From Saccoglossus kowalevskii (taxonomy: Eukaryota > Hemichordata > Enteropneusta > Harrimaniidae), in assembly GCF_000003605.2 (NCBI RefSeq), contig NW_003158234.1, forward strand, positions 113,417 through 136,637: DNA of 23,221 bases. The letters are read 5' to 3'. The position numbers were made by a program, and so were the translations under genes. Below the pieces are notes generated by a model that saw only the letters and a program-made list of their open reading frames with translations, was not told the origin of the DNA and made no database searches. Below, in pieces: positions 2,062 through 21,491 of the stretch (position 1 is the stretch's first letter; each line of letters starts with the position of its first letter).

Positions 2062-3894
2062 GTAACTTATGATTTACCTTGTCAGTTCATATGTAATTTC
2101 AGCTCATCATTTTGCCTCGTACAAGTAAATATAATCCGATTTATTCAAGTTTATAAAAACGCACTATGTTTGACGAATTGTATTTGATGTTTCTTTCTCA
2201 GATTTAGAAGATTCTGGATGCGCCTATGGTAAGAAATTAATAATTCTTGATATTCTTAATAATTTATTGTGATGCTTATATATCAGAATAAACACTTACC
2301 GACTTGCGTTTATTTCTGTAGGATGGAGTGTGTTTGGAAACAATTGCTATCGTTACTTCTATGGAACTCTGGGGTCTGTGTACAATGAAAGCCTGCACTT
2401 ATGTGAAATGTGCGTATTTGGTATTCCTAATTTATTCAAAAAGTAAAAGTGGTTTATTTGCATGCAGCCTGAAGGAGTTACTTAAAGTATGACGTGTTTT
2501 TCATTTGTAACCAGGTTTGTTGATATATACTGAAATATTTAACGCTTCTGGCACCGGAGACCAACGGCATTATATAACATCATATACGTTGTTTTGGAAC
2601 CATCGTCATATTTTGATAGTTTTACGTTCAACCATTAAAAAAAATTTTAATTTGGGATCCCAATGAACGTAACACATGATTTTGTTATCAATATGCACGT
2701 GCTTGTTATTTTATATTTGTACAGAGCTGGTGCAAGTTTGGTCGTTGTGTATAATGACTCCGAAAACCAATATATAGCAGAGATGGTGAAGTCGTCGTGT
2801 AGAAACCAGTCATGTGACGACGAGTTAGTGTGGATAGGTAAGGTTTACAAGTGTGGAATAACAAATGTATGTGAGGCTGATTTCACAAACAAGCAAACAC
2901 ATAATCAAACATCAATTTATTCTATCCATGGCATACTGAACGTGTAATTTGGCATAGTTGACCATGGGATGCAATTTTAAACGAGCTAAGAGATGATGTA
3001 GATGATATATACGACATATTATGTGATATAAAATCTGAAATATGGCAAATTATCAAAAACTGCTGGAATATCTGAAATGAGCTTGATTTTTTGTCTAGAA
3101 AAAAAAGCATTCTTGCTCAAACATCCTGGGAAATAAATTAAACTGAACAACGTTTATCTGACTCCGACTAAATGGTGTCATTACAAAAAAGAAACTAAAG
3201 AGCCATAGCAATTAATATTTGTCAATGAAAGAAGTAAGAATTTAGGTTTTCCCCGCAACATTTTGAAAACACAAGGTATCCTAAAATCTGTTAGACATCA
3301 TCACATTCAGTCTAGAATACATATTTAGTTACATCTTTACGAAATGGATGATAGAAGCTTGCCTCTATGATTGGAAGATTCAAACAATGCACGTAGCGTA
3401 ATTTAACCCTGTTTGAATAGCAACTCATTTCTTATATTGCCATTGAAAACTATTCGAGATTCTGATTGTACTGATTGATTGTTCATAATGTGATAAAATT
3501 CAAATTACCAGGATAGTGAGATTGTAAACCTCTGAATTAGGAATATGAGTATTTGTTCCCACCACAAGTCACGTGTTACTATAATGTTAGGCAACGTTGT
3601 CAACGTAGTAATACAATATAGCAGCATTCGTGTATCAGGTATATATTGAACGATTGAAGAGCTAGGTGTTCAGTTCGTATTAAGAGTATATTCACGAGCT
3701 CGTTTTTTGCAGGATATAATGACCTCGATAAAGAAGATTCATTTATTCCAGAAGGTTCAGAGTTTGGTAATTGGACACATACTATGATTGAAGAACACGA
3801 CTGTGTCAGTATAAACATAACGAGTGAGACCTGGTTCATAGGGAATTGCAGCATGGTACATGGTTTCGTCTGTGAAATGAACAGCATTCAGTAA
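1987..3894 (+). CDS. Gene A, 3' part: last five exons of a secreted multi-CTLD protein (partial)
   Basis: Five coding exons (1987-2061, 2202-2228, 2322-2409, 2725-2837, 3713-3894) correspond one-to-one to exons 10-14 of gene B. They match in length (75, 27, 88, 113 nt; last exon 182 against 179) and in splice phase (1, 1, 2, 1). They encode the end of CTLD2 (..SYICQEG), a 9-residue linker and a complete terminal CTLD3 ending ..HGFVCEMNSIQ-stop. The frame is intact throughout, so this 3' part looks functional. The 5' exons are absent from the window, and sequence just upstream of 1987 does not match gene B. No membrane segment or GPI signal follows CTLD3, so a secreted product is expected. In the last exon A and B differ at about 11 residues plus one codon insertion/deletion. 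Confidence 0.8.
2202..2228 (+). CDS. Gene A 27-nt micro-exon (equivalent to B exon 11)
   Basis: Acceptor ttctttctcag, donor TATG|gtaaga, phase 1-1, encoding DLEDSGCAYG across its edges. It links CTLD2 to CTLD3 and carries the first Cys of CTLD3. It is too short for ORF finding. Conservation of length, frame and splice sites with 17760-17786 supports it. Confidence 0.75.
2322..2409 (+). CDS. Gene A exon (equivalent to B exon 12): start of CTLD3
   Basis: Acceptor atttctgtag, donor GAAAT|gtgcgt, 88 nt, phase 1 in and 2 out. It reads GWSVFGNNCYRYFYG.. to ..YNESLHLCE, the first helix region of a long-form CTLD, with an N-glycosylation sequon (NES). Confidence 0.8.
2725..2837 (+). CDS. Gene A exon (equivalent to B exon 13): middle of CTLD3
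   Basis: Acceptor tttgtacag, donor ATAG|gtaagg, 113 nt, phase 2 in and 1 out. It reads AGASLVVV.. to ..CDDELVWIG and ends in the WIG core. Two extra Cys (SSC..QSC) may form an additional loop disulfide. Compared with gene B, about 19 of 37 codons differ and 11 change the residue. The excess of silent change per available site suggests both copies were kept under selection. Confidence 0.8.
2838..3712 (+). other. Intron before the last exon of gene A
   Basis: This is an 875-base A+T-rich intron with no internal exon, RNA gene or repeat that I recognise. The matching intron in gene B (18287-18549) is only 263 bases and carries an (ACAT)n tract. Confidence 0.6.
3713..3894 (+). CDS. Gene A last exon: end of CTLD3 and stop
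   Basis: Acceptor cgttttttgcag, phase 1 in, stop TAA 3892-3894. It reads GYNDLDKEDSFIPEGSEF.. to ..GNCSMVHGFVCEMNSIQ. It holds the two inner Cys and the terminal Cys of CTLD3. Where many CTLDs have WND before the inner Cys, this has W-F-I-G-N-C. Confidence 0.85.
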
Positions 3895-6055
3895 AAGCGA
3901 TTTTTTCGTTGTTCCTTTTTCATATAAAAAAGTCAATTTTTCATTACAAATTAACACGGAAATACTAAACACAGCTTTTAAAATATATACAAGACTATTG
4001 TTTAAATATACAAGACTATTGTTGAGCGTTCCCTCTTTCCGATATGACTAATATGTTTGCCTCAAACGTTACGTGTAAATGAGTATTGTTTGCCAACATT
4101 TTCCAAAATTAATAATTTACTCATGTTCATTAGCATTTGTAGAATTTTTGCATACCTATTGTATTCGTTTGGTAGAATGATTATGTTATACTAGTTGAGG
4201 TACTGTGTTACCTTCTCTATAACTAAAAACAAAGGCTTCACTGTTCCCATCGTTGTTATAAATTACATATTTACTCCCTTACACGGGACGGTGCTTTTAG
4301 ATGATGATGAGTTTTGACGCACACACAAAACAGAATGACTATATTACTACAATTTTGAAGCGAATGATCCATGTATTGATACCTCGTTACTTTCATAAAT
4401 GGTGTGAACCAACACTAATTGTTGTAGGCGCATCTGAACTTCAAACATATTTAAATATCCATATATATTACACAATTTAAATGAAGTACACAACATATAC
4501 GTAATACAGTATGTTACATGCGGACTTCTCTCAACGCGTGTGAATGAGTGTCATACAGTTAAACTGAGCTCTTCCTGCTAATCCAATTATCATTAATACA
4601 AAAAAGTTAAGAACTTATGTTGATTTTCATAACAGGAAAAATACAGTTCATTAAGTTTTGAATGCTCTGATATTTAATATTTATACAGAATGCATAAAAC
4701 ATAATCGATAGTCAAACCAAATGTGTAATGATGTACATGTGCTAGTTGAAAATGAATTCATGAAATGTACTTCCTAAATTGAATGAATGCAGCGTTTACA
4801 CAATATTGACAACAAAGTGTACACTCAATTAATTAATTCACGTACATTACATTATAAACCGAGCATAAGATTGTGAAGGGCGCCACATCGTGTTCCACTA
4901 AATCTTAACATGTTTAATGATATAATTTCATTTCCACATCTTCTTAGCAATATTCACCCTTTCTTACCTACATATACACATACTCGTAGTACGTATGCAG
5001 ACTTAAAGAGGCATTGTCAAAACTATTGAACCAAGATTTTCCAGACTGAACGACTGACCTTAACATTAAAAAGTTTGTTTTGGCAGATATAATGAGCGTG
5101 TAGTTAAATACAATAAAACTGTTACAAAGATGATCTCGTTATCATTTATCTCATGTAGACGTCCAGTTCCATACAGAACTACTTGATTGTGCCAAGAATG
5201 TGCTCATTTTTTTGAAATACCTGACATGAAGTAATGTATATTATGGAGTTTATATACCTTTCTCTTAGTGATTTGAATATATAGTGTACTTCAGTTTATT
5301 GTTTTGTTCTTGTAAATTGTTTTGTCAAATGTAGTATAGTGACTTAGACATTGTGTATTTGTTTGATTGTATACTAGAGATGTCAGTTAACCACAGGTAT
5401 GAATTTGTGGTTTCACGAATGTTAGCGAAATGTGCATGCAATGTAAACAATCACCTCGTACTTTGATATTAGATACACAATATACGTGCATATATACTGT
5501 ACAGGCTCTAGTCTTGTGCTTTCATCATCATTCATCTGGCTGCCAGGAATAGCAAATGTTAAGAGGACTCATACAATTATTTTCCTTGACAACATGTCTG
5601 AGTCTTTTTTTAAATTTTAAAATAACTGAATGTTTAGACGAATTATAATAACATATGTATGTACCACGCATACACATTATTACTACGTGTATAACTCTGT
5701 ATTCTGTTCAAACGGGTGCCTCATTTATGAATGATTACTATTTAGTGAAACAGGCGATCACACTTGTATATATTAATGTGCAATACTTTTCTTGTTCCTA
5801 TCAAAAATTAGTGAAATCTGAAATCAATCCTTCATATCGAAAATCTCGACTAACACATTTTTTGTTGATAATTGACTTGGGTCTAATTTGTTTGAGTATT
5901 ATTGTTTGTATATAAACCAGTGACATTGTTGATTATCTTTAAAGAATTAAATGTGAATGACTTTTTAATATGTATTGGTCAATTCTTTGAATAAAGTACT
6001 AAAAGCACGCTATTAGAATGTTGTCGACAATTCCTTTGTACATGTAGTCACCCTT
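3895..6055. other. Intergenic region between genes A and B
   Basis: No gene is seen. The 3' flank of A and much of this spacer match the spacer between B and C. Examples are 3944-3970 with 18780-18805, 4024-4160 with 19490-19600, 4305-4360 with 19762-19815, and 5545-5900 with 20757-21090. No close AATAAA follows gene A; the first clear one I see is at 5112-5117. Several stretches present here are missing or replaced in the B-C spacer. Confidence 0.6.
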
Positions 6056-6122
6056 GATATACGTACTATGTGAGTGCGTACACTGATTATAATGTGCATG
6101 CTTATACGCATGCGCTCACAGC
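6056..6122 (+). promoter_or_regulatory. Putative proximal promoter of gene B
   Basis: A block 50-120 bases upstream of the start codon is strongly conserved at 21252-21316 before gene C. It holds a TATA-like GATTATAAT (6085-6093) and a palindromic CGCATGCGC (6107-6115), which resembles an NRF-1-type core. Position and conservation between copies are seen directly; promoter function and factor identity are inferred. Confidence 0.45.
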
Positions 6123-6172
6123 TGCCACGAATAAGGAAATGCATAACTCCAACTATGATCACCGTTCAGATA

Positions 6173-6271
6173 ATGTTGCGACTTGAGAAATTCTCTCTTC
6201 TCGGATTATTGCAATACATTTATGTATTTACCTGTGCAACTGATCAAATTGGAAGACGGTATGTTTCGGAA
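6173..6271 (+). CDS. Gene B exon 1: signal peptide
   Basis: It encodes 33 residues. A hydrophobic core (FSLLGLLQYIYVFTCA) follows MLRLEK and fits a signal peptide cleaved near residue 21-23. The donor GAA|gtgagt is conserved in gene C. A second donor nine bases on (GAG|gtaaga, 6280) is also in phase 0 but is destroyed in gene C (ataaga), so the first is preferred. Confidence 0.8.
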
Positions 6272-9200
6272 GTGAGTGAGGTAAGAGAACATTTTATATT
6301 ATATTTTTTTTATTGTTTCGATTGATAAAGATGACGGCTATTGGTTTTGACTAACAGAAACATTCGGAAATTTATTCCAGTTCATGTAAGTAAGTATTGT
6401 CACTATTTCTTAAACTGTGTCAGCAGAACAATTTATTTGGTTTATCAATTTATCTCAATTTGTTTATTTTTCATTAAGTCTATGTTGTTTTACTGATACC
6501 CTATTATGTGCACTGTGTTTCAATAGAAGCATAAATCGTCTACGTGTGCATATGTAATTTGAACCACGACGATGCTAAATAATGTATGGATGCTATTAAA
6601 TTCGAGACATATACATTCATTGTAATTTTGAGCTGAATCACTGTATATTACATAACAATACATTATTGCAATACATAACTTTTAATACAAGGACACCCTT
6701 GACCGATCTTGTAGTAAATATAAATTAGTCACGGTAACGTACGGTTGATATGCCCTTGCAGTAACTAAACAATTTTGAAATGATCGCAACAAAATAGTTA
6801 TGCATAAATGTCTGTTTTGGACACAACGTCTGGATACGCCCATTGTATGTCGAGTCTCTGTGATGGCCACTGTCATTATAACAAACATGGGTTTCACCAA
6901 CATAAAGTGTGGAGCGGCAAGATAGTAAAGAATGTAAATTGCTTTGTTCTTCAGTTTTTAGTCGGATTATATTCCTTTTATAGAATGTGTGTTATTTTGT
7001 TTAAATATTTAATTAGGATTTCTTTTCAGGATGATATTGCTTTTCTTTCATGGTATGCGTGTTATTTTTTGAATATTTGTGAAATGTTTGAATTATTTTT
7101 GAGAAAATCTACCTCCGAGTATTAATGGTCAATTCCTGATAGAATAAAGGGATAAAGGGGGTCACGTGACATATCGAATATTCGTGGTTTTATATGTGGT
7201 TGCCGCAATTCGTCACGCCTTTCACTGCTTGGCTGAATGTGACAAAGACAAAGGAAGCGTATTCACGTTTATATTGATGAAACCCATAACAGGGTGTGTT
7301 ACGTAATCTGTAATGTCGATTATTCTTGATCATTAAACAATAGCCGCGATGGTCACGGATTCAGTATCAGTAATGTGGTGAAATACCGGATTTCAGATCA
7401 AGACTTCTGTGGCAGTTCTGTATTGATATTACAGACTCAATTGTTACATGTACAGAATAGAAATACTAATCGCATGAATCATTATGCTTGCTTGATCTAT
7501 AGCTGTCAAACACGTACGCGCTCTTTAGCATAGCTCATTACTAATTCAAATTCAGACGTCACACATACTTTTCGTTTACCATATTGTTTAAGATTTAACA
7601 GGGGTGGTTAGATTATTTATAATTTACAATTTAGGTCTCTAGGCTGTTGATATTGATATTAGGTCAGAGCTTCTTCCACACATTTTAATAAACGATTCCT
7701 TAATCTTGTTTTCATGACGAATCAATTAAGGTGGGTTCATGACGCCTGGCTTTCTAAAAAATATTTACAGTGAGAGCGGGATTTTGTAGCAAAATAAATA
7801 CTAAACTGTGGTTGTCAAACACAGCAAATCTAATTAAATTAAAAAAATAACATAACAAAATTGGATCATGATCACCTCACTCCCCCGAGTAAAACTGAAT
7901 TAATGTTGTTGTGTTCAAATCAATAGGGCTTTCAGTATTCAAAGTTAATACTAGACTGGTTATTGAGTATGAACGAATATCGCCTGTCATAACCATACAA
8001 AGACACACTTGAAACAAAATACATTTTAACTAATCACCTAGGCAGCATTTCTCTGTGTAAGCTATTTCGTAAGTCTCGTATAAGCGATGAAGTATCTGTG
8101 AAGTGTTTCTTTTCTCAATCGTGAACATTGGCGCTTGGAGTCACAATCAAACTTTGTTAACTTTTGATGATACTCTTTTTGTCTTTAGTGCCCGGACAAT
8201 CTGCTCTTGTTTCAATTATTGGGCTTGCAACTTGTGGTTGTATTATTTCCTCTCGTTTGATACTGACTGGTCTTCAATATATCAAGTCAAGTGGGATCAG
8301 GAACTGTCTTTAGCCTATTTGGCAACTCATGTGTAGTCATGTCTTGTGTTACAAATGGGAGACTTCCGGATCTCGTGTACATCATAATTTCAATTGTAAC
8401 TATAATACTATAAATCTTTAGGTTTAATATCCTAGTCTTTGATTTTCAGCAGCATTTTACTTGTACTGCTGAACGCAGAGCGTGCTGTCTGGTCTGTAAG
8501 CAAACATTTCTTCTACATGTCTGGAGTAGTGTTCAGTTCAATTTCTGGTTCGCCATCAGGTTGTGCCATAGAAGCTACTGATACATATATTCCCCATGAA
8601 TCTCTTCTCTTTATTTTGGTTCTTCTAAGTGAGTTTTTACCACGCCTACAGCAGATTCAGTAGCGGCTGATTTTCCACCGACAAATTATCTTCTCTATTA
8701 ACTGGCTTATATGCCCCTGCACGTCGTCCTAAGCACTGATGTTAAAACCACCGTTTTTATCTTCATATATGAATGGATTCAACCTAAACCAATAAACAAC
8801 ATTGGCGGGTCTTTTTGCAAAGGACACCGCGTTTTCATGTACTTTGCCTGCATGAACATTTTAGACAAAAGTTGTAATCAACCTCTCAATTTGTCGAACC
8901 CGTACTTAGTAAACGTTGAAAGCCACTCAAAGTGCGATGTTCTGCCACATGTTGTGAAATGCAAACCAAACAGGCAATGTCCTTCAGTGCATTAAACGCT
9001 GATACACACTCGATTACATTCTTGTCATTTTCAGTGGTCAAATGCTCGAAATGTTCATTCTCAATCTGTGAGAGTATATACTCCACATTCATAGTTTCAC
9101 ATATTATATGTCCCGTTCCAAAATGCATGTTGTGGAGCTTGGTTGATGGCAAATTTATGATGTTTCTATGACTTTCAAATGGTTGATTACGACACTCCGA

Positions 9201-12200
9201 CACATCCTGCCAACTCCCCTTTACATTAAATGTACGTTTATCCATCCATATCCTAGTACTTCCCAGCCACAAACACTCAGATTTAAATCCTTCAAGTCCA
9301 AACTCATTGGGTATACTTAGAGCATGTGTGTAAATGTGTCGAAATGGGCGTAGTGCGAGTGGCTAGTGCTAGTAGCACTAATCCGAAAAAGTACTAGATC
9401 TAGTGCTAAAATGGCACTAGATCTAGTGCTAAAATGGCACTAGATCTAGTGCTAAAATGTGCACAGTGCGAGTGGCATTGTTATCGCATTGTCAACGACG
9501 TCGAATAATAGGAGGGGCATCAACAACCACTTTCATATGCAAACTACAAACAGTATAAAACATCGGCAATATACGCGAGATGTCCATAATAATACTTTCT
9601 TTATATGCCGTCGTAAATTAGCCATCCGAAAATCATCAAATATTTTTTGAGGACTTCCATTTTCATCATTGAAGTATCTAACTAGTGTACGCAGACTTTC
9701 AACACCGTCAGTTGGGCCACCAAAGACGAAAGAAACTATTGCAGAATTAACAATAATAATTAATAATTCTTGTTGAATTAAAAAGTAGACCGCCTGCAAT
9801 TTCATTACAATATCGCCCAGTGTCATTTTTCAAATACATTTGTTTTTATTCTCAACGAAATTTCAAATAAAAATGAACACAACTGCATTGTGTAGTAGCA
9901 AATGATTCTGGTTGCGCAATCCGGTCATGCTGCGTCTCACAATTGTTGAATATTATTCAGTAGTGATTATAATAATGCACAAAAAATAAATTCGTTGAAT
10001 TGTTATGAAATTCAAATAAAATTCACTTAGTTTCATCGTAAGCAAATGATTCCGATCGCATATAAACGCTCGATGCTGTAGGGTATCCGCCANNNNNNNN
10101 NNNNNNNNNNNNNNNNNNNNNNNNNNNNNNNNNNNNNNNNNNNNNNNNNNNNNNNNNNNNNNNNNNNNNNNNNNNNNNNNNNNNNNNNNNNNNNNNNNNN
10201 NNNNNNNNNNNNNNNNNNNNNNNNNNNNNNNNNNNNNNNNNNNNNNNNNNNNNNNNNNNNNNNNNNNNNNNNNNNNNNNNNNNNNNNNNNNNNNNNNNNN
10301 NNNNNNNNNNNNNNNNNNNNNNNNNNNNNNNNNNNNNNNNNNNNNNNNNNNNNNNNNNNNNNNNNNNNNNNNNNNNNNNNNNNNNNNNNNNNNNNNNNNN
10401 NNNNNNNNNNNNNNNNNNNNNNNNNNNNNNNNNNNNNNNNNNNNNNNNNNNNNNNNNNNNNNNNNNNNNNNNNNNNNNNNNNNNNNNNNNNNNNNNNNNN
10501 NNNNNNNNNNNNNNNNNNNNNNNNNNNNNNNNNNNNNNNNNNNNNNNNNNNNNNNNNNNNNNNNNNNNNNNNNNNNNNNNNNNNNNNNNNNNNNNNNNNN
10601 NNNNNNNNNNNNNNNNNNNNNNNNNNNNNNNNNNNNNNNNNNNNNNNNNNNNNNNNNNNNNNNNNNNNNNNNNNNNNNNNNNNNNNNNNNNNNNNNNNNN
10701 NNNNNNNNNNNNNNNNNNNNNNNNNNNNNNNNNNNNNNNNNNNNNNNNNNNNNNNNNNNNNNNNNNNNNNNNNNNNNNNNNNNNNNNNNNNNNNNNNNNN
10801 NNNNNNNNNNNNNNNNNNNNNNNNNNNNNNNNNNNNNNNNNNNNNNNNNNNNNNNNNNNNNNNNNNNNNNNNNNNNNNNNNNNNNNNNNNNNNNNNNNNN
10901 NNNNNNNNNNNNNNNNNNNNNNNNNNNNNNNNNNNNNNNNNNNNNNNNNNNNNNNNNNNNNNNNNNNNNNNNNNNNNNNNNNNNNNNNTTCATGTACATA
11001 CTCAGTTTTCCCACTGTAGCACATTTCCAATAAATGAAAGATACAACAACTTTACGTAAATATTAATTTATTTTCAGACAATTACGGGATGTCTCGACGT
11101 CGTTGACACGCGATATCAATGCCACTCGCACTATGTACATTTTAGTACTAGATCTAGTGCCGTTTTAGCACTAGATCTAGTGTCATTTTAGTACTAGATC
11201 TAGTGCCATTTTAGCACTAGATCTAGTACTTTTTCGGATTAGTGCTACTAGCACTAACCACTCGCACTATGTCCATTTCGACACATTTACATACCTCCTT
11301 AGAGATATATACGCTCATTTATAAGCACTAGAATATGATATATTGTCGTTTTTTATTATATTTCGCTTTGCATTATATGCAGCACAAATAGGATCCTCTT
11401 GGAGTTCACCATCCAGCCCATGACAACCAATTTAGTATTTATTGTCCCTCTTGGTATGTCGCTATTCGTTTCTCTATTTTATGCCAGCTCTGAAATTTCA
11501 CTAATTTGTCTTTCAACAATTATGTCCTTTGATTCAGCAACATGTATCGCAGTTGATAGTGATATAAAATTTTTTACCTCTAATGTCTGTCTCTCGGTTT
11601 AATTAATAATTAGTTTCTCAGGGTCATCGGCATCAGTGTTATATGTGATTTTCAAGGTAAAGTTTGTCAGTGTTATTTAGGCATCTACATCAAACAGAAC
11701 TAGTTTGCTATATTCGGATTCTTTGACATGTTTTAAGTTCATTCCAACCTTGTCTATAATGTGTTTATAGATTTCTTTGATATAGTTACATCCACTTCTC
11801 TTAGTTGGGATCATTAAAAACAGTCTCTAGTAAGCTGTGTTTCCATAAACCAATTTTCTGTTCAGTATTAAATTGTTTTCAGTATATAATCGCTGCACAT
11901 TTTCATTCGCTATTTTCATTAGATTCAGTGTGACAGCAGATTCCCAGTCCGCTTCAGTTTTTTTATCCCTGGATGTTTGATACGTTTCACCCCAATAACT
12001 TCCCCATTCCCCATACCCTCTGCCAACCAATTTGTGTGTGTGTGGGGAGGGGTGCATGTGTGAGTGGGGGGGGGGGTCCAGTAGCAACTGTAGCTATAAC
12101 TATACATAGTTATGGAAACTCCAAATGTTCACTGATATTAAATAACAAGTTGTCATCGTTACGTTTTCATCGTACATCGGCTTTGAAATTCCTACACTGA

Positions 12201-15200
12201 ATATTACTATTATTTATTTTAAGTTCAATGTTATTTAACTTCGATCTTTAGTCTTTTATTTCGTATAGTCTCCCGCTGGTTCGTTGTCCCATTCATATTT
12301 CAATGTATTGCTTAATTCAGCACTTTAACAATTTAGTTTAAATTGTAAACATTACTAACTCAATCCTGTTGTGTAATTCATAATTTGGTCATATAAGCAG
12401 TTTGTATTGCTAGTAACTCTTTCACACGGTGTAATAAAATACTGCTTATTCATTTTAAAGATGATTTACAACCCTTATCAAAGCTCACACTCATCAGTTC
12501 CAATGAATTATAATGTAGCCGGCCTATCTGTACTGATTTCAATACTCTATCCTATCTTTAATTAGGTAGTCTCGGTGACTACGAGCAATAACTCCGATCA
12601 CACACTTTCTTGTGGAATTCTCCTTGTGTTGGAAGCTCGCACCAGGTTGTGTACTAATACCATGTTCGAACCCCACCCTTAGTTTTAATAGTTTAGAAAG
12701 AACTTAGAAAGAAGTCTTAGCCAAGGTGCAATGGCGATAGAATGGAACTGATTCTAGACCATTTTTTTCTCAAAATAACGATGCGGTGATGCGATTTCAA
12801 TTGTTGTGTGTGTGATAATTTATATATAATTTAAATAATTTAATTTATAAATATACTGGTTACTACATATTTATATTTCGAATTTTGTCGTCAAACTATA
12901 AAACATATTATTCAAAAAACAGTTATTTTACTAGTATGTGCCTTTGATCAACGAAGCTTAACAGACGGGTTCAATGAATCTGTTTTTTAGGTTTGTGTTT
13001 CTACAGAAGATACAGATAGGTGTTTTGCTAAGCCATGCCACTTTCCAGGCACATGTCAATCATTCTGCAATCAGCCGGGATATATATGTTTGTGCCACAC
13101 TGATGTGTTCACGGGATGTAATTGTGATATGCAAGCCACACAACTTGGTGAGTTCAGATTTAAAGTAATGATTGTGAGACTACAAATAAATCCGGTAAAA
13201 GTTGTACATATACTTTTACAGTTTTGTGCAGAAGAGCTAACTATATAAAGCAACATATACACTACGATAATACATACGTTTTATGTTTTCTTGTTTCAAT
13301 ATGAGCTTACTCAATTTTGATTATACATGGGACAATTCTGTGCACCACTATTACCAGACATATATATTGAGTATAACTAATTCAATTACAGGCACACACA
13401 ACATGAAATTTGAATGTACAAACACGGAGAAATACTTTGTCACTGCAGACTGATTCATACCATATTAATGTCTTGCGTTTAGTATGTGTATGAGTCTACA
13501 CTACAGGATAAACAAAAGAATGTTCAAGTTATAAAATGAAAGCAACTGGCAAAAATATATTTGTACGTGAACTACGAATATTTTCCCCATTACTTTTAAA
13601 ATTGAACCTTGAAGTGCAGTATGTTTTTTGTTTTTTTTTAAATATTCACTATTCACTATTCGATAATATTTTTGTCTTATTTTGTTATTTGTTGTATTAA
13701 ATTTTCATAGACGGCAAACGAGGCTATTGTAATGATATGTAATTGTTAATTATGTGAATTAGGATATCACAAGTAATGGAGAAAACAACTTACAAAACAA
13801 TGGTACCCTATTGTAAAACACATTGATTATCGCAGAACTCGACGTTGAACAAAGCATTATATATCATTATAATATATAATTGTAAAAAATCTATGGGGAG
13901 TAAATATATTATCTTACTCCCTTACCTTACCATATTTGGTTTGTTCATATACACCCAGACGATCGATGTTTGTTTCACAATAGATCTATGCATTCATTTT
14001 TAGGTCAACACAACAGTGAATGTTATTTCGAGGATGATGGAAATGACTACCGTGGAGTTGTTAATATCACTCGTAGTGGGAGAATGTGTCAAAATTGGTT
14101 ATCAAACACCCCACATGAGCACAACAAATTCCCAATCAATTATCCATCAGATGGTCTTGGAGACCATAATTTTTGTCGCAATCCAGGCAGACAAAATTCG
14201 GTTTGGTGTTATACGATGGATCCTGATTTAGAATTTGAATTATGTGACGTAGGGTTACCAAAAGAACACTGTGAACAAGGTAGGGATATCACTACACTAT
14301 TATGTAAATTTGAGCTTCCAGTGGAACAACTGTCTACATGGCAGGGATATGACTGGAGTACTCCTATGTGATATAGAACTACCCACAGAACACTCGAAAT
14401 AAGAATGTGTTATCACTACAGTACTACCGTGTGGTATTGGTTTATAAATGCGCCAATGTTGGGTTATCACTACATTATTACGATAAAATAGATTATAACA
14501 TAGTAATATAATAAAATACATTTTCCATATATATATGTGTGTCAGACTAAATGTATCATTGAAATGTATTTGAAATACAAATGTCAAATACTGTTTAATT
14601 TAGGCATTCACTGGTCTTGGTGCATATCATAACAAATTGTACAGCTGAATAGATTAAAAAACTACGTTACAATGACGTATGTCAACATTTGAGTAATTTA
14701 GTTCCGTCGTAATATTGATGGCACAATAGAATACAGAACATTGAATTGAGACGTATTCTAAGGCATAACAAATATTTTATGTTTTTGTAGATTCTATGTC
14801 AACTATTTCATACCTAGGATGTTTTGAAATTTATAAAAGCGATTTTCGTGGTTGGATGGTTATTGAGAATTCTACACTAACGCCGGAAATGTGTGTCAAA
14901 GATTGCGCTAAATATGGAACTTTATTTGCAACACTGACTGTCGTTGATAATGTTCAATGTCACTGTGCTAACGGTTATCGCATAGGGAAGCCATTGGAGG
15001 AGTTGAACTGCACTACACCATGCCCAGGAAATGGCGAGTTTTTCTGTGGTGGAAACAACGCTGTGTCTGTTTACCATACCGGAAAGCGTATGTAATCATG
15101 TTATTATCCCATACTATTTTCAGCAACTCGTATAGAATTTGATAGAGTGATTTATTGAAGACTTAGATACGCTTATGACTATATTCATCACGACTCATTA

Positions 15201-18200
15201 TTTTTACAGCACTTCCGGAAATAGAAAGCTGCGTCTTCGGAGAAAGATCTGGTGTCTTAATTAAAGGTCTTTGTTACCACTTTTCAAAGAAAAAATTCAA
15301 TTGGGTTGAATCTGAACAGCAGTGTGCATTGAAGGGCGGACAGTTGGCTTCAATTTATGATAGAAAAACTCTGGTGAGACTGGTCTGATACATTTTCAAA
15401 CAAATATTTACGGTATTTGTCATATACATTGGTTAAATAAATTGATACTAAGGAATTGGTTTCTACACTTATTTTAATAGTGTACATTTGTTTTTGGGAC
15501 GGTGTAGGAACATTATGTGTCGTTATTTTCATAGTCGGAATCGGCAACACATGTATGGTATTATCCTATATAGTTGGTATGGGCCTTAAACTACTAATAT
15601 TCAACAGATTTTGTTTGCAATTCCAATGTTGCTAGTAGAACATATTTATTAGTTTCTCAATATTACAGGAGATTTTAACGTATTATGTATCCGTCGAGTT
15701 CCAAGATTGGCGAGCCTCAATCTTAAGAAACTACTGGATTGGCGCAACTGATATTGAACGGGAGGGAATTGTACGTTATAATAACGGAAATGAAAGCATA
15801 CTAGATCTGAATATTGATTTATTTGTCGCCAAAGAGTCACTTCATACTGGACCGTATCCACATTGCATAAGTAAGTGTATAATGTTATATATGCATTCAT
15901 ATAACAGGCTTATTTGATAGTGTACTCAATCCAACACGAGCAACTAAACTTGTTAATGCTTTCCCTTTCAGCTATGTATGGTAAGCACATGTTGAAGTTA
16001 CACAGCATTGCATGTACAGAAAAGCAGTTTTATGTCTGCTCTGATGCACAGTGTACGTACCACATATTATAATAATATTCACTGAAGTGCAGACGATTAA
16101 TTGCATTCGGACACAGCTTATTTTGCGCTCAAATTTATCGCAATGTATTTTTGTTTTACAAGTTATGTACATGTATTCCCTGTTCTATTTAGCTAGCAGC
16201 TAATATAATGATACAAAATAACGCATGACGTTTCACAATCTAGACTACAAACTAACGGTTTTTTGTATATACAATAAAATATTTTTTTTCTCAGTTTGGC
16301 CTACAGTGCCATGCGGCATCGAAAATAATGGTGTGTCAAATGGAGAAAACTGCTTTAAATTAATAAATGTACCACGTGACTGGCACAGAGCAAACATAGC
16401 ATGCGCCAGATATGGCGGTAGACTGGCTACAATTAACGACAGGCATACACATGTAAGTTTATACTCGAATGATATATGTAGATATTATAAATAATATGAT
16501 TTGAATGAAAGAGGAACAATTTTGCATATTTACTGCAGACTTGTACTTTGAAGAAACCAATTCTCTAAAGCTTTTCTGATCTCAAGTTCAATATATCATT
16601 AGAATATAATTTGATATTAAAAGTTTTGGTTTCTTTATATCACTTGTGTTTAACTAATCTCTGAATAATATCAGCTTTACATGGATAAAGGAATAAATAA
16701 ACAGCGGGGGAGCAGATATTGTTGCCATTAAAATGCTGATACTTTGTTCAAAACTAATTCCTCCAAACTCGATAAATATGGTTCCAATAAGAAATCAGCG
16801 TACTGATTAAGTCATCTTTATTGTCGAAAAGCTTTGCATCAGTATTGTACTTTACAAATTAAATACAATCACATCCAATAATTATGTGCCATTATGTATG
16901 GGGTATAGTAGTATATAAGGTAGAAAAATCAAAAGTTTTAATTCATCCAGTCATTTGTGAGTCATTTTAATTTTTCCGAAAGTTTCTTTGAACAAACCAA
17001 TGTGATACAGGGTGCTCTTGAAATTAACGTGGGACTACTATTTTGTATTTAAAAGAAGATGTGGTTAAGGGGCCAGACCCCGCCCATTATTTGTAATAAC
17101 CAGACAGACACTGTTAGAGTGAAAAGCACAACCAAGGCCACCTTAAATTTGAATTGGTTATTTTCAAAATGTGACCTTTAGTTATTTCTCAGACACCAAG
17201 CTTTATTGTCGGGGAGTACCGATGACTGGTGGTTTGGCTTACACTACGACAGTGAGGTCGATGCATTATTGTTTTCTGACTCTACACCCATGCAGAATGA
17301 CACTGCATTCGCAAGTCAGCCTCACGTCACAGGGGATTTTGCAGGTAGTGTCAACAACCAATTAATTAATTAATTAATTAAACAAATTACCTTTCTTTGC
17401 AATTTAATACATATTTAGCATCACTATGCGTATAATAAAACAATTAACCAAACGGGAACAAATTGCTTGTCGTCTGGGAAAAAAATAGTTTGCTAATATT
17501 ACATATCCATCCTTGTAGAAATGAATTTTGATAAGAACTATCTATGGTTATTGGTGAATGGAACTAAAGAAAATTCTTATATTTGTCAAGAGGGTAGCTA
17601 TGATTTTTTTTCATTATGAGTACAATAACTTGTACCGCGCACAATTGCTTTTAGAAGATTTTGTAAAAATAAAACGTACAAAAGAATACAGTGCTTTAAC
17701 ATGGCATAACACTCCTCGTATTAACACAAATAAATTGTAATGCACGATATATTTTTCAGATTTAGAAGACACTGGGTGCCCCTATGGTAAGACAAGTTGA
17801 TAATAATGTAACTGTATATTTGTAATAATCGAGTATAATACTTATATGTTAGAATAAATACTCTTCGTTAATAAATGCTTATGTAATTTCGTTAGGATGG
17901 ACTAGATTTGGTAACAGTTGCTATTATTACCTCGACGGAACCCTGGAATCTGTTTATAACGAAAGTCTTCACTTGTGTGAAATGTACGTAATTGTTATTA
18001 TATTCTTGAAACAGTAACTGGAAGAATTATTTAGGGTACAATGTGTACAATTTTATAACCATGTGTAAAATATAATAATACACGTCGTTTTGTGTTCTTT
18101 TTCTTGTTGATCTTAAAAGCTTAAAAATACTTTGTTGTCAAGATACACGTACTTGTATTTTATATTTATACAGAGCTGGGGCGAGTTTGGTTGTTGTTAA

Positions 18201-18728
18201 CAATGAATATGAAAATCAATATATCGCACAGATGATGAAATCAACATGTGGAAGCCAGCCATGTGACGACGAGTTTGCATGGATAGGTAAGGTTTACAGT
18301 GAGGTAACGCGAATATGTGAGGATGATTTCACAAACAAACACGCTTACATACTCATATACTAACATACATACATACATACATACTTTTATGAGTACATGT
18401 TCAGAATACATCAAAACAACTAATAAACCATAGTATCAGACTTGGGTGTGTCACATGTGACAGATGCATGAATTTTCTCACAACATAGAACTATATGTTT
18501 AGTTTGTGTTAACAGTACAAATACATACCAACAACCTTGTTGTTTGCAGGATATAATGACGACATAGAAGATTCATTTATACCAGAAGGTTCAGACTTTG
18601 ATAATTTGACACATGTTATGATTGAAGAACACAGTTGTGCCAGTATAAACATAACAAGTGAGACATGGTTAGTAGGAAATTGCAGCATGGTACATGGTTT
18701 TGTCTGTGAAATGAACAGCTTTCAGTAA
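6173..18728 (+). CDS. Gene B: secreted EGF-like/kringle/WSC/3xCTLD protein, 14 exons, 692 aa
   Basis: Joined exons: 6173-6271, 12991-13147, 14004-14279, 14791-15087, 15210-15373, 15669-15870, 15972-16052, 16295-16452, 17182-17344, 17519-17593, 17760-17786, 17896-17983, 18174-18286, 18550-18728. All introns are GT/AG, phases chain without conflict, and the total is 2079 nt. Approximate residues: signal peptide 1-22, EGF-like 38-82, kringle 90-174, WSC 185-271, CTLD1 284-422, CTLD2 431-556, CTLD3 564-690. About ten N-x-S/T sequons and no transmembrane segment after the signal suggest a secreted glycoprotein. Start 6173 was chosen because gene C keeps it while the in-frame ATG at 6155 is lost there. 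Kremen proteins share kringle-WSC but continue with CUB and a membrane anchor. Ligand and function are unknown; a recognition role is inference. An extra exon hidden in the gap of intron 1 cannot be excluded. Confidence 0.85.
6381..6389 (+). other. Possible conserved 9-nt micro-exon
   Basis: The string ttattccag|TTCATGTAA|gtaagtat looks like a complete micro-exon with acceptor and donor. It is conserved in gene C (21606-21614, TTCATGCAA). After exon 1 (phase 0) it would add a stop in B but Phe-Met-Gln in C. Both splice signals may be chance. Confidence 0.2.
8540..8640. repeat. Conserved intronic block shared by genes B and C
   Basis: This is similar to 22911-23010. The plus strand offers acceptor-like gccatcag and donor-like CTAA|gtgagt flanking about 70 bases with an open frame in both copies (GCAIEA..LLFILVLL). 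The minus strand is also open across it in both. It could be an alternative exon, a regulatory element or an old repeat. Confidence 0.35.
8700..8885. other. Intron stretch, nothing definite
   Basis: Both strands have short open frames. A plus frame from 8711 runs to 8995 but overlaps the longer minus-strand relic and has no motif. I see nothing supportable. Confidence 0.3.
8886..9315 (-). pseudogene. Unrecognised minus-strand coding relic, left half
   Basis: One minus frame stays open from the transposon edge to a stop at 8886-8888, about 140 codons, in an A+T-rich intron where chance ORFs are usually much shorter. Composition is protein-like (Trp, Cys, His spread; ..WLGSTRIWMDKRTFNV.., ..GTGHIICETMNVEYIL..). 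I cannot assign a family. Together with the decayed frame at 11305-11960 it may be the remainder of a mobile-element or host gene split by the foldback transposon. Confidence 0.35.
9316..9322. repeat. Left 7-bp target-site duplication (CTTAGAG)
   Basis: CTTAGAG directly precedes the left terminal inverted repeat, and the same 7 bases follow the right terminus at 11298-11304. Confidence 0.6.
9323..9504 (+). repeat. Left terminal inverted repeat with 3 palindromic subrepeats
   Basis: It contains three copies of the perfect 12-base palindrome ACTAGATCTAGT (9393-9404, 9416-9427, 9439-9450) on a 23-base period with GCTAAAATGGC spacers. The direct repeat AGTGCGAGTGGC brackets the array (9352-9363 and 9465-9476). 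Confidence 0.85.
9505..10092. other. Transposon interior, left of gap
   Basis: A 97-codon minus-strand open frame (9826-9533) and a shorter one running out of the gap (10092 to 9953) are the only coding hints. Neither shows a transposase signature that I can name. They could be remnants of the element's own gene, which would then be transcribed on the minus strand and continue into the gap. Confidence 0.35.
10093..10988. other. Assembly gap (896 N)
   Basis: A run of N lies between the two inverted termini of the transposon. The gap length may be an estimate. Open frames reported across it are artefacts of reading N as codons. The hairpin-forming termini or the repetitive nature of the element probably caused the assembly break. 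Confidence 0.99.
11094..11297 (-). repeat. Right terminal inverted repeat with 4 palindromic subrepeats
   Basis: This is the reverse complement of the left terminus, about 22 bases longer because it has four copies of ACTAGATCTAGT (11147-11158, 11170-11181, 11193-11204, 11216-11227) at a 23-base period. Copies differ in the spacer (GCACT.. versus GTACT..), so the arrays have diverged or been shuffled since insertion. Confidence 0.85.
11298..11304. repeat. Right 7-bp target-site duplication (CTTAGAG)
   Basis: It is a direct repeat of 9316-9322. The bases outside (ta.. left, at.. right) do not extend the match, and the preceding base differs (A versus C), so 7 bp is the better length than 8. 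Confidence 0.6.
11305..11960 (-). pseudogene. Decayed minus-strand coding relic, right half
   Basis: A single minus frame from about 11960 down to 11310 reads protein-like sequence interrupted by about six stop codons, with pieces such as NVQRLYTENNLILNRKLVYG and YIKEIYKHIIDKVGMNLKHV. Long stop-poor runs in one frame, with Lys/Glu/Ile-rich helical segments, suggest an old gene or transposon protein rather than random intron. Family not recognised. It is continuous in position with the open minus frame left of the transposon, though in a different frame. Confidence 0.3.
11961..12990 (+). other. Gene B intron 1, right end
   Basis: Low-complexity GT/G tracts lie at 12032-12076 (TG repeats, then a run of G). 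A tRNA B-box-like string GTTCGAACCCC occurs at 12663-12673 without a convincing A box or tRNA fold. The intron ends with a polypyrimidine tract and acceptor ctgttttttag at 12980-12990. No exon is seen. Confidence 0.45.
12991..13147 (+). CDS. Gene B exon 2: Cys-rich EGF-like module
   Basis: Acceptor ctgttttttag keeps phase 0 with exon 1; the later AG at 13006 would not. Donor CTTG|gtgagt, phase 1. Cys pattern C-x4-C-x5-C...C-x-C...C fits an EGF-like fold (CFAKPCHFPGTC .. ICLCHTD .. CNCD), with two or three additional Cys that could add a disulfide or form intermolecular links. No calcium-binding EGF signature is evident. Confidence 0.7.
13148..14003 (+). other. Gene B intron 2
   Basis: An 856-base A+T-rich intron. 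A short tandem ATTCACT ATTCACT lies near 13645. No exon or RNA gene is seen. Confidence 0.6.
14004..14279 (+). CDS. Gene B exon 3: kringle domain
   Basis: One phase 1-1 exon of 276 nt encodes an entire kringle with all six Cys (SECYFEDDG, GRMCQNW, HNFCRNPG, VWCYTMDP, FELCDV, EHCEQ). Hallmarks are YRG, CQNW, YPSDGLGDHNFCRNPG and WCYT. The Asp-x-Asp of lysine-binding kringles (NPDGD) is replaced by NPGRQ, so lysine or plasminogen-type ligand binding is not expected. NIT is a glycosylation sequon. A single phase-1 exon is the form expected of a shuffled module. Confidence 0.92.
14280..14790 (+). other. Gene B intron 3
   Basis: A 511-base A+T-rich intron with the acceptor tgtttttgtag. Its start extends the kringle frame by 30 codons, but the GT donor and the phase match to exon 4 favour splicing. 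No other feature is seen. Confidence 0.6.
14791..15087 (+). CDS. Gene B exon 4: WSC domain
   Basis: A phase 1-1 exon of 297 nt. It reads ISYLGCFEIY.. TPEMCVKDCAKYG.. VQCHCANGY.. LNCTTPCPGNGEFFCGG.. AVSVYHT, with the eight Cys of a WSC domain in the canonical order and the CPGN..CGG tail. WSC domains bind glycans in fungi and occur in Kremen and polycystin-1 in animals. Sequons NST and NCT are present. Directly following a kringle, it repeats the Kremen module order. Confidence 0.92.
15210..15373 (+). CDS. Gene B exon 5: CTLD1, first part
   Basis: Acceptor ttttttacag-type (tatttttacag), donor ACTCTG|gtgaga, phase 1 in and 0 out. It reads ESCVFGERSG.. GLCYHFSKKKFNWVESEQQC.. GGQLASIYD, the N-terminal Cys pair of long-form CTLDs, helix 1 with the first core Cys, and the LASI strand. 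Confidence 0.88.
15669..15870 (+). CDS. Gene B exon 6: CTLD1, middle
   Basis: Acceptor tattacag, donor GCATAA|gtaagt, phase 0 in and 1 out. It contains NYWIGATDIEREGIV, the WIG core, and ends near the inner Cys (PYPHCI). The long loop has no EPN or QPD triplet, so calcium-dependent sugar binding is not predicted. NES sequon. Confidence 0.85.
15972..16052 (+). CDS. Gene B exon 7: CTLD1, end
   Basis: Acceptor ccctttcag, donor CAGT|gtacgt, 81 nt, phase 1-1. It reads ..LHSIACTEKQFYVCSDA, the last two core Cys. WND is absent. It is too short for ORF finding and is supported by phase and domain completion. Confidence 0.82.
16295..16452 (+). CDS. Gene B exon 8: CTLD2, first part
   Basis: Acceptor tttttttctcag, donor ACACAT|gtaagt, phase 1 in and 0 out. 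It reads VPCGIENNGVSNGENCFKL.. DWHRANIACARYGGRLATIN. It has the same intron position as CTLD1, so CTLD1 and CTLD2 probably arose by internal duplication. Confidence 0.88.
16453..17181 (+). other. Gene B intron 8
   Basis: A 729-base A+T-rich intron. The only local oddity is a small G+C-rich inverted repeat, GGGGCCAGACCCC, near 17078-17090. No exon is seen. Confidence 0.55.
17182..17344 (+). CDS. Gene B exon 9: CTLD2, middle
   Basis: The acceptor gtgacctttag keeps phase 0 with exon 8. The stronger-looking ttatttctcag twelve bases on would break the frame. Donor GCAG|gtagtg, phase 1. It reads LFLRHQALLSGSTDDWWFGL.., the WIG-equivalent being WFG. No EPN/QPD and no inner Cys are present. NDT sequon. 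Confidence 0.8.
17345..17518 (+). repeat. Gene B intron 9 with (AATT)n tract
   Basis: A short intron with an AATT tetranucleotide microsatellite (about five units) near 17361-17382. Gene A has no equivalent sequence upstream of its matching exon. Confidence 0.6.
17519..17593 (+). CDS. Gene B exon 10: CTLD2, end
   Basis: Acceptor atccttgtag, donor GAGG|gtagct, 75 nt, phase 1-1. It reads EMNFDKNYLWLLV.. ENSYICQEG. It gives the final Cys but not the inner one, so CTLD2 lacks the inner disulfide. It is the paralogue of 1987-2061. Confidence 0.85.
17760..17786 (+). CDS. Gene B exon 11: 27-nt linker micro-exon
   Basis: Acceptor atttttcag, donor TATG|gtaaga, phase 1-1. It encodes DLEDTGCPYG across its boundaries and carries the first Cys of CTLD3. 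It is conserved in gene A (2202-2228). Confidence 0.8.
17896..17983 (+). CDS. Gene B exon 12: CTLD3, first part
   Basis: Acceptor tttcgttag, donor GAAAT|gtacgt, phase 1 in and 2 out. It reads GWTRFGNSCYYYLDG.. YNESLHLCE. The internal intron pattern (1, 2, 1) differs from CTLD1/2 (0, 1), so CTLD3 is of separate descent. Confidence 0.85.
18174..18286 (+). CDS. Gene B exon 13: CTLD3, middle
   Basis: Acceptor tttatacag, donor ATAG|gtaagg, phase 2 in and 1 out. It reads AGASLVVVNNEYENQY.. STCGSQPCDDEFAWIG, with an extra Cys pair ahead of the WIG core. Confidence 0.85.
18287..18549 (+). repeat. Gene B intron 13 with (ACAT)n tract
   Basis: A tandem ACAT/CATA tetranucleotide tract of about five units lies at roughly 18360-18383. 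This intron is 263 bases against 875 in gene A. Confidence 0.6.
18550..18728 (+). CDS. Gene B exon 14: end of CTLD3 and stop
   Basis: Acceptor ttgtttgcag, stop TAA 18726-18728. It reads GYNDDIEDSFIPEGSDF.. EEHSCASINITSETWLVGNC.. GFVCEMNSFQ. NLT, NIT and NCS sequons. No WND. The protein ends three residues after the CTLD, with no anchor. Confidence 0.9.
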
Positions 18729-21250
18729 AGGCATTTTTTCGTTATTTATTGTTCATGTAAACAAGTTTATTTTTCATTAGAAATTAGCGCGGAAATACTA
18801 AACATATATACACTGTGCTTCCCTTACAATGGAAGAGATACACCTTTTAAGGATTAGTAGAGGTTATTGCTATTGGAATTGCATAGCACATTTCTGAAGT
18901 AACATATTCTTTGAAACCCATCAAGTTATATATTTTTAGAAAGCCTTTTTTTCAAATAATATTAAATAAATATTCCAACAAAAAATAGAATTACGTGATT
19001 ACTGTGCAAATAGACAGGTGTTATTTTAGAAGAATTCGAAATAAGGCCACATAAATTATGTGTTTGGGACTTGGAGATACTATAAAAGGCTTGAATTCAA
19101 TTTCCCAGTTGGTTTACTGTTGCATGCATAGATTTTGACCGTATAATACTTTTTAAAAACATCGTCAACGTCAACAAATATTATACCCCATGTCAGAGTC
19201 CACAAAAGGGAGAGTTGTGTCGTATTTTCTAAAGTCAAGGAGACGAGATTAACTCTCTTGACTAACCCAAAATACCGATGTTTTCTTATGGGTGAAAAAT
19301 CACAAAAAAACAACACTTAACTGATTTACTCAAAATGCATTACCCTCTTAAACCATCGCTAAAATTGTTTTTCCAGTGAATGTTTGTTTTATGTATTCGC
19401 AGAAAAGAATGTGGGGAAAAAAGGTAAATTTGATATTTTCAAAGAACCTCTACTACAACCTTGAAATATATACATTTCAAATATACGGGGCAGTTATTGA
19501 GCGTTCCCCTTTGTTTGCTTCAAATGTATAAGTAAATGAGTATTGCTTGCCAACATTTTCAAAAATTAATAATTTGCCCATATTCAGTAGCATTTGTAGA
19601 CTTGTTGGAAACATATTGTAATCGTTTGATAGAATGATTTTGTTATTCTAGTTTAGATATGGTGTTACCCCCTCTCTTTTATAAAAACAAAGGGTAGCTT
19701 CACAGTTCCCATCGTTGTTACGAATTACATATTTACCCCTTACTACGGGACGGTGCTTTCAGATGATGTTGAGTTTTAACGCACACACAAAACAGAATGA
19801 CTATATTACTGCAATTTCATATAGTCATGAACGTGTTCGCTGTCAATACCACCAAGTGCTTTCATTTCTTCATATGTCTTGCCTAGCGATCGACAGGGCC
19901 GTCAGTTTGATGAACCGAGTAACACCTTAATAACCGTTATTCCGCGATGAAATTATTTTCTTTTGTAAAATATAACTTTTTAACCCTTGACAGTGCATTA
20001 ACGGAATAATCATTATCAGCTATCGATAAAATATTCAAAAACTTGTTTTTCAGTAGAAATAAATCAACACAAGAGGCCTCCGATAACAAAAAATGCGCAA
20101 ATAGTAGTAAACGTGCCTCTGCATTCTCCGTGAATTTCGTAACTTGCTATGATCAGGGTAAAGAAAAAACCTGTGGTTACTTTCAACAGTTTGCTGGAGT
20201 CTGATTAAAAACGTGTCTCAAAAACACCTTTACGTCAGTTTTTCGATATATATGTTCGACTCATAACGATAGAGTCAGTCAATTTAGAACTATCATGTAT
20301 GCTATTGGAAAGCATTTTTGAACAATTTAACTGAAAAGACGATTTTTTCATTGCTTATGAATATTAATTTATGCAAATGAGACAATTATTTCCACCAATC
20401 GTGTCATACAACCCCCCCCTGCCGTCTATATAGTTTCACTAAATATTTCTCCTTTATGGCAGAAACTAAGGATAAATGTGCACGCGAGCAAGCGTTCCTT
20501 TTGGATATTTGCCAAAACGAAAAGATGGCGCTGTTCAATACTTCTTATGCCGCTAATTCATAACTTACGGTTCGAAGGATACAATGCGTTTCAAATCGAA
20601 TATGGAATTAAATAATATAAGCGAATGGCGCAGCCAGAATTGTGTACATATATAAGGTACATTTAGACATAGTTATTTAAATTAAATGTATTTAATTGTC
20701 ATTCAAATATATTGTCAACATTTAAAAATGTTCATTAATCCTGGCTTGATCTGACTACCAGGAATAGCAAATGTAAAGAGGACTGATACAATTATTTCCT
20801 TTTACGACATTTCTGAGTCTTTTTGAACTGTTAAAATAACTGAATGTTTCTTAAGATTTCTTAAATGTACCACGCATATTCATTTTACTACGTATATACA
20901 TCTGTATTCAGTTCAATCAGGTGCCTCAATTATGAATGATCAAAATTTATAGACTTGTCTATATAAAAGTGCAATACTTTTCTTGTTCATATCAAAGATT
21001 ATTCGTAAATGGAATCCTTCATATCGAATATATTGGACTAACGCATTTTTTGTTGATGATTGAGTTGGGTCTAATTGTTTGTATATAAACATGAGCCTGT
21101 GACATTCTTTAATGAATTAAATGTAAATGTAACTTTAATATGTCTTGGTAAATTCTATGAATAAAGTATTAAAATCACGCTATTAGAATGTTTTCGACAA
21201 TTTCTTTGCACATGCAATTCACTGCTGTGACGTTTGCAGTCACCCTTCTT
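18729..21250. other. Intergenic region between genes B and C
   Basis: No gene is seen. A canonical AATAAA at 18965-18970 is a candidate poly(A) signal for gene B, about 240 bases past the stop. About 18810-19460 is absent from the A-B spacer, an insertion of roughly 0.65 kb whose ends carry the inverted 10-mer agtagaggtt (near 18857) / aacctctact (near 19444). A C-run lies near 20411. 20740-21390 closely tracks 5530-6170. Confidence 0.55.
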
Positions 21251-21251
21251 T

Positions 21252-21316
21252 GATATACATACTATGTGAGTGCATACACTGATTATAATTTACATATACG
21301 CATGCGCTCAGAGCTT
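21252..21316 (+). promoter_or_regulatory. Putative proximal promoter of gene C
   Basis: It matches 6056-6122 before gene B, including GATTATAAT (21281-21289) and CGCATGCGC (21299-21307). The following 75 bases up to the start codon differ more, with an insertion relative to B. Confidence 0.45.
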
Positions 21317-21392
21317 ATTATCACATTTTACAATCTTCGGCGACCACAAATATTGAAAAACTTATCTCCAAATTAGGACCACCGTCCAGATA

Positions 21393-21491
21393 ATGATGCG
21401 ACTTGAGCAATTCATCTTTTTCGGATTATTGCAATACATATATGTGTTTACCTGTGCAACTAATGAAATTGGAAGACGGTATCCTTCAAGA
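21393..21491 (+). CDS. Gene C exon 1: signal peptide (partial gene)
   Basis: Encodes 33 residues, MMRLEQFIFFGLLQYIYVFT followed by CATNEIGRRYPSR, aligning residue for residue with gene B exon 1. Donor AGA|gtgagt, phase 0. The rest of the gene lies beyond the window if its first intron is as long as in gene B. Confidence 0.75.

Follow-up and report, generated by a model that had tools for sequence, protein, structure and literature searches.

A predicted secreted mosaic protein with EGF-like, kringle, WSC and three C-type lectin-like modules, encoded in a tandem gene array

A gene on the forward strand (6173-18728) of the window, that is, the whole stretch of 23,221 bases analysed here (G+C 35%, with 896 N at 10093-10988), appears to encode a mosaic protein in which a signal peptide is followed by an EGF-like module, a kringle, a WSC domain and three C-type lectin-like domains (CTLD1 to CTLD3). 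Our best reading is that the product would be a secreted, disulfide-rich multi-point binder, working in innate recognition or in mucus or matrix, from a gene family that duplicates locally.

The gene and its protein

Rebuilding the gene independently from the sequence gave 14 exons between 6173 and 18728, comprising 2,079 nt (692 codons plus TAA), with GT-AG borders at every junction. The exon number, ends and codon count proposed in the initial annotation were all reproduced, and at the sequence level the 14-exon chain is real. The exons are as follows.

6173..6271, forward strand: exon 1, encoding what by eye is a signal peptide (residues 1-33); its homologue in the downstream copy keeps the ATG and the GTGAGT donor
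12991..13147, forward strand: exon 2, EGF-like, 9 cysteines, residues 34-86; matches factor VII EGF1, no Pfam match
14004..14279, forward strand: exon 3, kringle as a single phase 1-1 exon, residues 86-178; Pfam Kringle, plasminogen and HGF kringles
14791..15087, forward strand: exon 4, WSC as a single phase 1-1 exon, residues 178-277; Pfam WSC, Kremen1-like cysteine spacing
15210..15373, forward strand: exon 5, CTLD1 part 1, from the rebuild and Pfam
15669..15870, forward strand: exon 6, CTLD1 part 2, from the rebuild and Pfam
15972..16052, forward strand: exon 7, CTLD1 part 3, from the rebuild and Pfam
16295..16452, forward strand: exon 8, CTLD2 part 1, from the rebuild and Pfam
17182..17344, forward strand: exon 9, CTLD2 part 2, with the weakest acceptor of the chain
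17519..17593, forward strand: exon 10, CTLD2 part 3, from the rebuild and the upstream copy
17760..17786, forward strand: exon 11, CTLD3 part 1, from the rebuild and the upstream copy
17896..17983, forward strand: exon 12, CTLD3 part 2, from the rebuild and the upstream copy
18174..18286, forward strand: exon 13, CTLD3 part 3, from the rebuild and the upstream copy
18550..18728, forward strand: exon 14, CTLD3 part 4 and the TAA stop, from the rebuild and the upstream copy

Splice sites were scored with position weights against all GT (n=1,406) and AG (n=1,042) sites of the window. Every one of the 13 donors ranked in the best 14% of GT sites. Of the 13 acceptors, 10 ranked in the best 13% of AG sites. 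The three weaker acceptors were those at 12991 (best 21%), 17896 (best 38%) and 17182, whose score is equalled or exceeded by 54% of sites; the last of these, opening exon 9, is the weakest junction of the chain. An alternative exon 9 acceptor, the AG at 17193, looks stronger by eye, but it yields a stop at codon 489 and was rejected. Acceptor 17182 is favoured because the resulting exon start, LFLR, aligns with the matching helix (NFIR) in the first CTLD of the PLA2 receptor, and the alignment has a gap, of two residues, only a little further downstream.

It had also been claimed that the exons join without a phase conflict. The chain does join in frame, but this is weak evidence for it because the kringle, WSC, CTLD1 and CTLD2 all start and end in phase 1 (class 1-1) and would fit in any order; moreover, skipping exon 3, 4, 7, 10 or 11 singly keeps the frame. 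Better support comes from: the strength of the splice sites; the borders of exons 10-14, which are kept in an upstream copy; and the repeat of exon 1 downstream.

The Pfam scan assigned Kringle to residues 95-168 (E 5.2e-22), WSC to residues 185-265 (E 1.3e-10) and Lectin_C to three stretches (E 7.7e-31), while a fourth match, UL45, fell below its own cut-off. Scored singly, the CTLDs reached 42.5, 35.1 and 44.3 bits, so that all three pass the Pfam cut-off of 22.6. The kringle exon also matched the kringles of plasminogen and HGF. For exon 2, no Pfam family was found at E up to 10; its best match among solved structures was factor VII EGF1 (E 1.9e-4), and a single-sequence structure model (mean predicted local distance difference test score, pLDDT, 59.9) was too poor to judge the fold. 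The domain order suggested initially thus stands for the kringle, the WSC and the three CTLDs by Pfam, while exon 2 is called EGF-like with reserve.

The N-terminus resembles a signal peptide by eye. No membrane helix was found after it in 19-residue stretches (best Kyte-Doolittle mean 1.15), no CUB domain appeared in the Pfam scan at E up to 1, and the C-terminus, MVHGFVCEMNSFQ, is by eye without an anchor tail. Judged from sequence features of this kind (a signal by eye and no later membrane-like stretch), the earlier view of the protein as secreted holds. There are ten N-glycosylation sequons and, after the signal, 41 cysteines, nine of them in exon 2.

The three CTLDs differ in intron pattern. 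CTLD1 and CTLD2 have common introns, one in phase 0 after DRKTL/DRHTH and one in phase 1 just ahead of a Met (TM/EM); these lie six and three columns apart in a gapped alignment, and their equivalence was read from the motifs. The introns of CTLD3 are in phases 1, 2 and 1, at other places. In blastp comparisons (E up to 10), CTLD1 matched CTLD2 at 2.9e-6 and CTLD2 matched CTLD3 at 0.003, and CTLD1 and CTLD3 gave no match. We infer that CTLD1 and CTLD2 arose by duplication of a three-exon CTLD, and that CTLD3 had a separate origin.

Tandem copies

The initial annotation overlooked tandem copies on both sides of the gene. The array thus comprises at least three copies, the other two being partly contained in the window.

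1987-2061, 2202-2228, 2322-2409, 2725-2837 and 3713-3894, forward strand: exons 10-14 of the upstream tandem copy, open to the stop
21393..21491, forward strand: first exon of the downstream tandem copy (blastn 90% over 91 bases; 86/98 aligned bases identical)

Exons 10-14 have the same borders in the upstream copy, with lengths of 75, 27, 88, 113 and 182 versus 75, 27, 88, 113 and 179 in the main copy, and the downstream first exon keeps the start codon and donor of exon 1. By subtraction of coordinates, the repeating unit measures about 15.2 kb from first exon to first exon and about 14.8 kb from last-exon end to last-exon end.

Between the upstream and main copies, exons 10-14 (159 codons) differ at 71 nucleotides, distributed 19/15/37 over the three codon positions, with a third-position excess (P 0.0008). 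The NG86 method gave a nonsynonymous rate (dN) of 0.108 and a synonymous rate (dS) of 0.503 (dN/dS about 0.21), and YN00 gave 0.119 and 0.368 (about 0.32). The two copies differ at 34 amino acids; neutral simulations (n=2,000) averaged 48.8 such differences and never gave fewer than 36. The changes in the last five exons of the upstream copy show purifying selection.

Several points weigh against our reading of the gene. The selection comparison covers exons 10-14 only. In exon 1, the differences between copies (9/3/4 by codon position) are without a third-position excess, and conservation is at the same level in the exon as in its 5' flank (88% vs 87%). Introns 12 and 13 are 81% and 84% identical over aligned bases, versus 77% and 80% for exons 12 and 13, and because these introns exceed the neighbouring exons in likeness, copy identity alone proves nothing, although exons 10, 11 and 14 reach 93%, 85% and 89%. 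In addition, the odd number of cysteines could reflect a wrong exon 2.

It must also be asked whether the chain is an artefact that joins two genes, one with the signal, EGF-like module, kringle and WSC and the other with three CTLDs, or whether exon 1 belongs to some item within intron 1. Phase fit comes cheaply to class 1-1 inner modules, intron 1 (6.7 kb) contains the 896 N as well as an inverted-repeat element described below, and passages of PMC3927609 document the risk that multidomain proteins are predicted wrongly. Nevertheless, the tandem unit has one type of first exon at its head and one type of last exon at its tail. When the window was searched in translation with the protein, no additional exons of these types came up, either inside intron 1 or between head and tail, although a first exon of another type would escape such a search. 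The gap between the WSC and CTLD1 exons is only 122 bases (15088-15209), leaving little room for a gene end, a new promoter and a signal exon. We consider an artefact unlikely.

Other blocks are also repeated between the copies. The intergenic blocks that follow the upstream copy (4054-4355) and the main copy (19512-19817) are 86% alike, as expected from tandem duplication, and the block at 5531-6612 is repeated at 20746-21830, extending into intron 1. A 109-base block occurs in intron 1 of both the main copy (8530-8638) and the downstream copy (22895-23003); the two are 83% alike and each is by eye open in one frame, which in the main copy is without a Pfam match. Ahead of this block, the main copy is longer than the downstream copy by about 1.6 kb.

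Comparison with known proteins

A close likeness is to Kremen 1 and 2 (Kringle-WSC-CUB-transmembrane), in which a WSC follows the kringle at once and the six kringle and eight WSC cysteines closely match those found here in position. The gaps between kringle cysteines are 22, 29, 11, 12 and 9 here versus 23, 29, 11, 14 and 5 in Kremen1, and those between WSC cysteines are 24, 4, 18, 2, 15, 4 and 8 versus 25, 4, 16, 2, 17, 4 and 8, with the Kremen1 residue numbers taken from passages of PMC5014086. However, the protein here is without a CUB domain and an anchor, and it carries an extra EGF-like module and three CTLDs.

A search with the single WSC sequence (E up to 10) gave six matches, including yeast Wsc1 (chain 7pz2, E 2e-4), with no Kremen chain among them. 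A three-sequence WSC profile reached Kremen1 (E 8.2e-7); Kremen was therefore present in the searched set. The WSC here is one 1-1 exon, whereas in Xenopus tropicalis kremen 2 the WSC is interrupted by a phase-0 intron, as given in passages of PMC3927609.

The Kremen1 residues that touch Dkk1 are named in passages of PMC5014086, among them D88 and D90, which hold Dkk1 K226. Most of these contacts are lost in the kringle here. At D88 and D90, where cysteine spacing is identical, the acids are replaced by G147 and Q149. With positions taken from whichever cysteine is nearer, E162, F163 and L165 correspond to Y105, W106 and Y108, and W94 is kept as W153. Mapping of the WSC contacts (D125, N140, E162, S163, Y165, D201) shifts by one or two residues with the alignment anchor used, and the D201 to N266 correspondence comes from a single anchor. 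A Kremen-type Wnt regulator, binding Dickkopf through its kringle-WSC pair, would account for the direct succession of the two domains, the similar cysteine spacing, the kept tryptophan W94 and the correspondence of W106 to F163. It is nonetheless very unlikely: Y105 and Y108 are changed together with both acids, and passages of PMC5014086 state that Wnt antagonism depends on the domain triplet and on attachment to the membrane, while CUB and anchor are lacking here.

Membership in the Kremen family was rejected on four grounds: no CUB domain; no anchor; replaced Dickkopf contacts in the kringle; and a different WSC intron. The initial description of the protein as Kremen-like is apt for the kringle closely followed by a WSC with similar eight-cysteine spacing, but not for the CUB domain, the anchor or the acids that grip Dickkopf. 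Sharing of mobile modules without common descent is termed epaktology, with Kremen and tPA as a printed example in passages of PMC3927612, and the protein here and Kremen probably stand in this relation.

Proteins of the tPA, urokinase and HABP2 type also have an EGF-like module ahead of a kringle and end in a protease (EGF-kringle-protease). In the protein studied here, the Pfam scan revealed no protease domain, and WSC and CTLDs take that place instead.

The polycystin-1 and sea urchin REJ family has both WSC and CTLD, according to passages of PMC1934368; its members are membrane proteins with PKD repeats, REJ, GPS and PLAT, of which none was found here, nor any membrane span (Pfam scan at E up to 1; hydrophobicity). 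That the gene encodes a soluble relative of these proteins is hardly credible. An NCBIfam polycystin model matched weakly over CTLD1 only (20.1 bits vs a cut-off of 1861.4), but this match reflects the common CTLD fold, and the Pfam scan (E up to 1) showed no other polycystin domain.

Other invertebrate mosaics share some of these modules. The limpet pedal adhesive candidate P-vulgata_14, predicted to be secreted, joins a kringle and a CTLD; passages of PMC7333891 give its domains as peptidase M12A, ApeC, CUB, Kringle, SUSHI x2, CTLD and ShKT, and it thus differs in its M12A peptidase, ApeC, CUB, two SUSHI and ShKT domains, with no WSC and one CTLD listed there. Bivalve CTLD proteins include unique architectures in which WSC is joined to CTLD, uncharacterized and with a suggested immune function (passages of PMC10140915), but "kringle" has no occurrences in the main text of that paper. 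Kringle and WSC are both named as partner domains of invertebrate SRCR proteins in passages of PMC10855680.

The protein is of a known kind, the exon-shuffled secreted mosaic proteins, and its domain order is a variant. The initial annotation knew of no described protein with the full order. Likewise, among the matches listed in open-licence literature, a search that lay apart from metazoan proteomes and architecture databases, we found no description of the EGF-kringle-WSC-CTLD order; its novelty is unproven. Prokaryote genomes, queried with the full protein, gave seven pattern matches, and viral contigs, queried with the kringle exon only, gave three, with none confirmed in either case.

Proposed function

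Calcium-dependent C-type lectins usually carry EPN or QPD plus WND as calcium and sugar motifs. All three CTLDs pass the Pfam cut-off, but these motifs are lacking, with no occurrence of EPN, QPD or WND in the 692 residues. The lysine site of plasminogen-type kringles consists of DxD acids and an Arg-Trp pair; in an alignment with plasminogen kringle 4, DAD is replaced by GRQ and RW by EF. Canonical sugar binding and plasminogen-type lysine binding were rejected since their motifs are absent. As the motifs and contacts are missing, Wnt regulation, plasminogen-type lysine binding and classical calcium-dependent sugar binding are not expected. The notion of a recognition molecule with lectin-fold heads, put forward initially, is still plausible, but the heads would have to work without canonical sugar and calcium motifs.

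We tentatively favour a secreted mosaic protein of a tandem family, acting as a soluble multi-point binder, most likely in innate recognition or agglutination. Exon shuffling may have assembled the signal, EGF-like module, kringle, WSC and three CTLDs. The kringle and WSC would then serve as a head to which a protein or glycan partner docks, and the CTLDs, without standard calcium and sugar motifs, might bind protein or surface ligands. Because the number of cysteines after the signal is odd (41), at least one would be left free, allowing a disulfide-linked dimer. The most likely setting would be recognition or agglutination in the body fluid or mucus of what is probably an invertebrate.

A more specific version of this proposal is somewhat doubtful: the copies may constitute an undescribed, lineage-specific tandem family of soluble receptors, with a Kremen-type kringle-WSC docking pair freed from CUB and anchor and three lectin-fold heads of two origins, which would work as multi-headed recognition molecules with binding that is specific to each copy.

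Alternatively, the same mosaic protein could have a structural or adhesive role, cross-linking a matrix (mucus, cuticle, egg coat or skeletal matrix) and not recognising microbes. The co-occurrence of kringle and CTLD in the limpet adhesive candidate speaks for this, but by eye the 692 residues contain no repeats and no lysine-, glycine- or tyrosine-rich or mucin-like stretches, and the plasminogen-type lysine-site acids are replaced in the kringle; we regard such a role as less likely.

The gene would bring one more domain order to the extracellular mosaic proteins of animals and place the kringle-WSC pair outside Kremen. It would also provide a tandem family whose intron positions reveal how old each CTLD is and where it came from. 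If microbes are what the proteins recognise, the array would illustrate on a small scale how local duplication diversifies receptors.

Other features of the window

The flanks gave no evidence of other genes, in that none of 10 chosen open frames had a Pfam match above cut-off; there was likewise no Rfam family at gathering score and no tRNA. Within intron 1, inverted repeats of about 180-200 bases (9326-9504 and 11094-11294), 83% alike and with inner 23-base tandem repeats, flank about 1.6 kb that includes the N gap. This element resembles a transposon of the foldback or terminal-inverted-repeat type. A 221-codon open frame (449-1114) without a Pfam match lies within the window's first 1.3 kb and may belong to a transposon situated in one of the upstream copy's introns.

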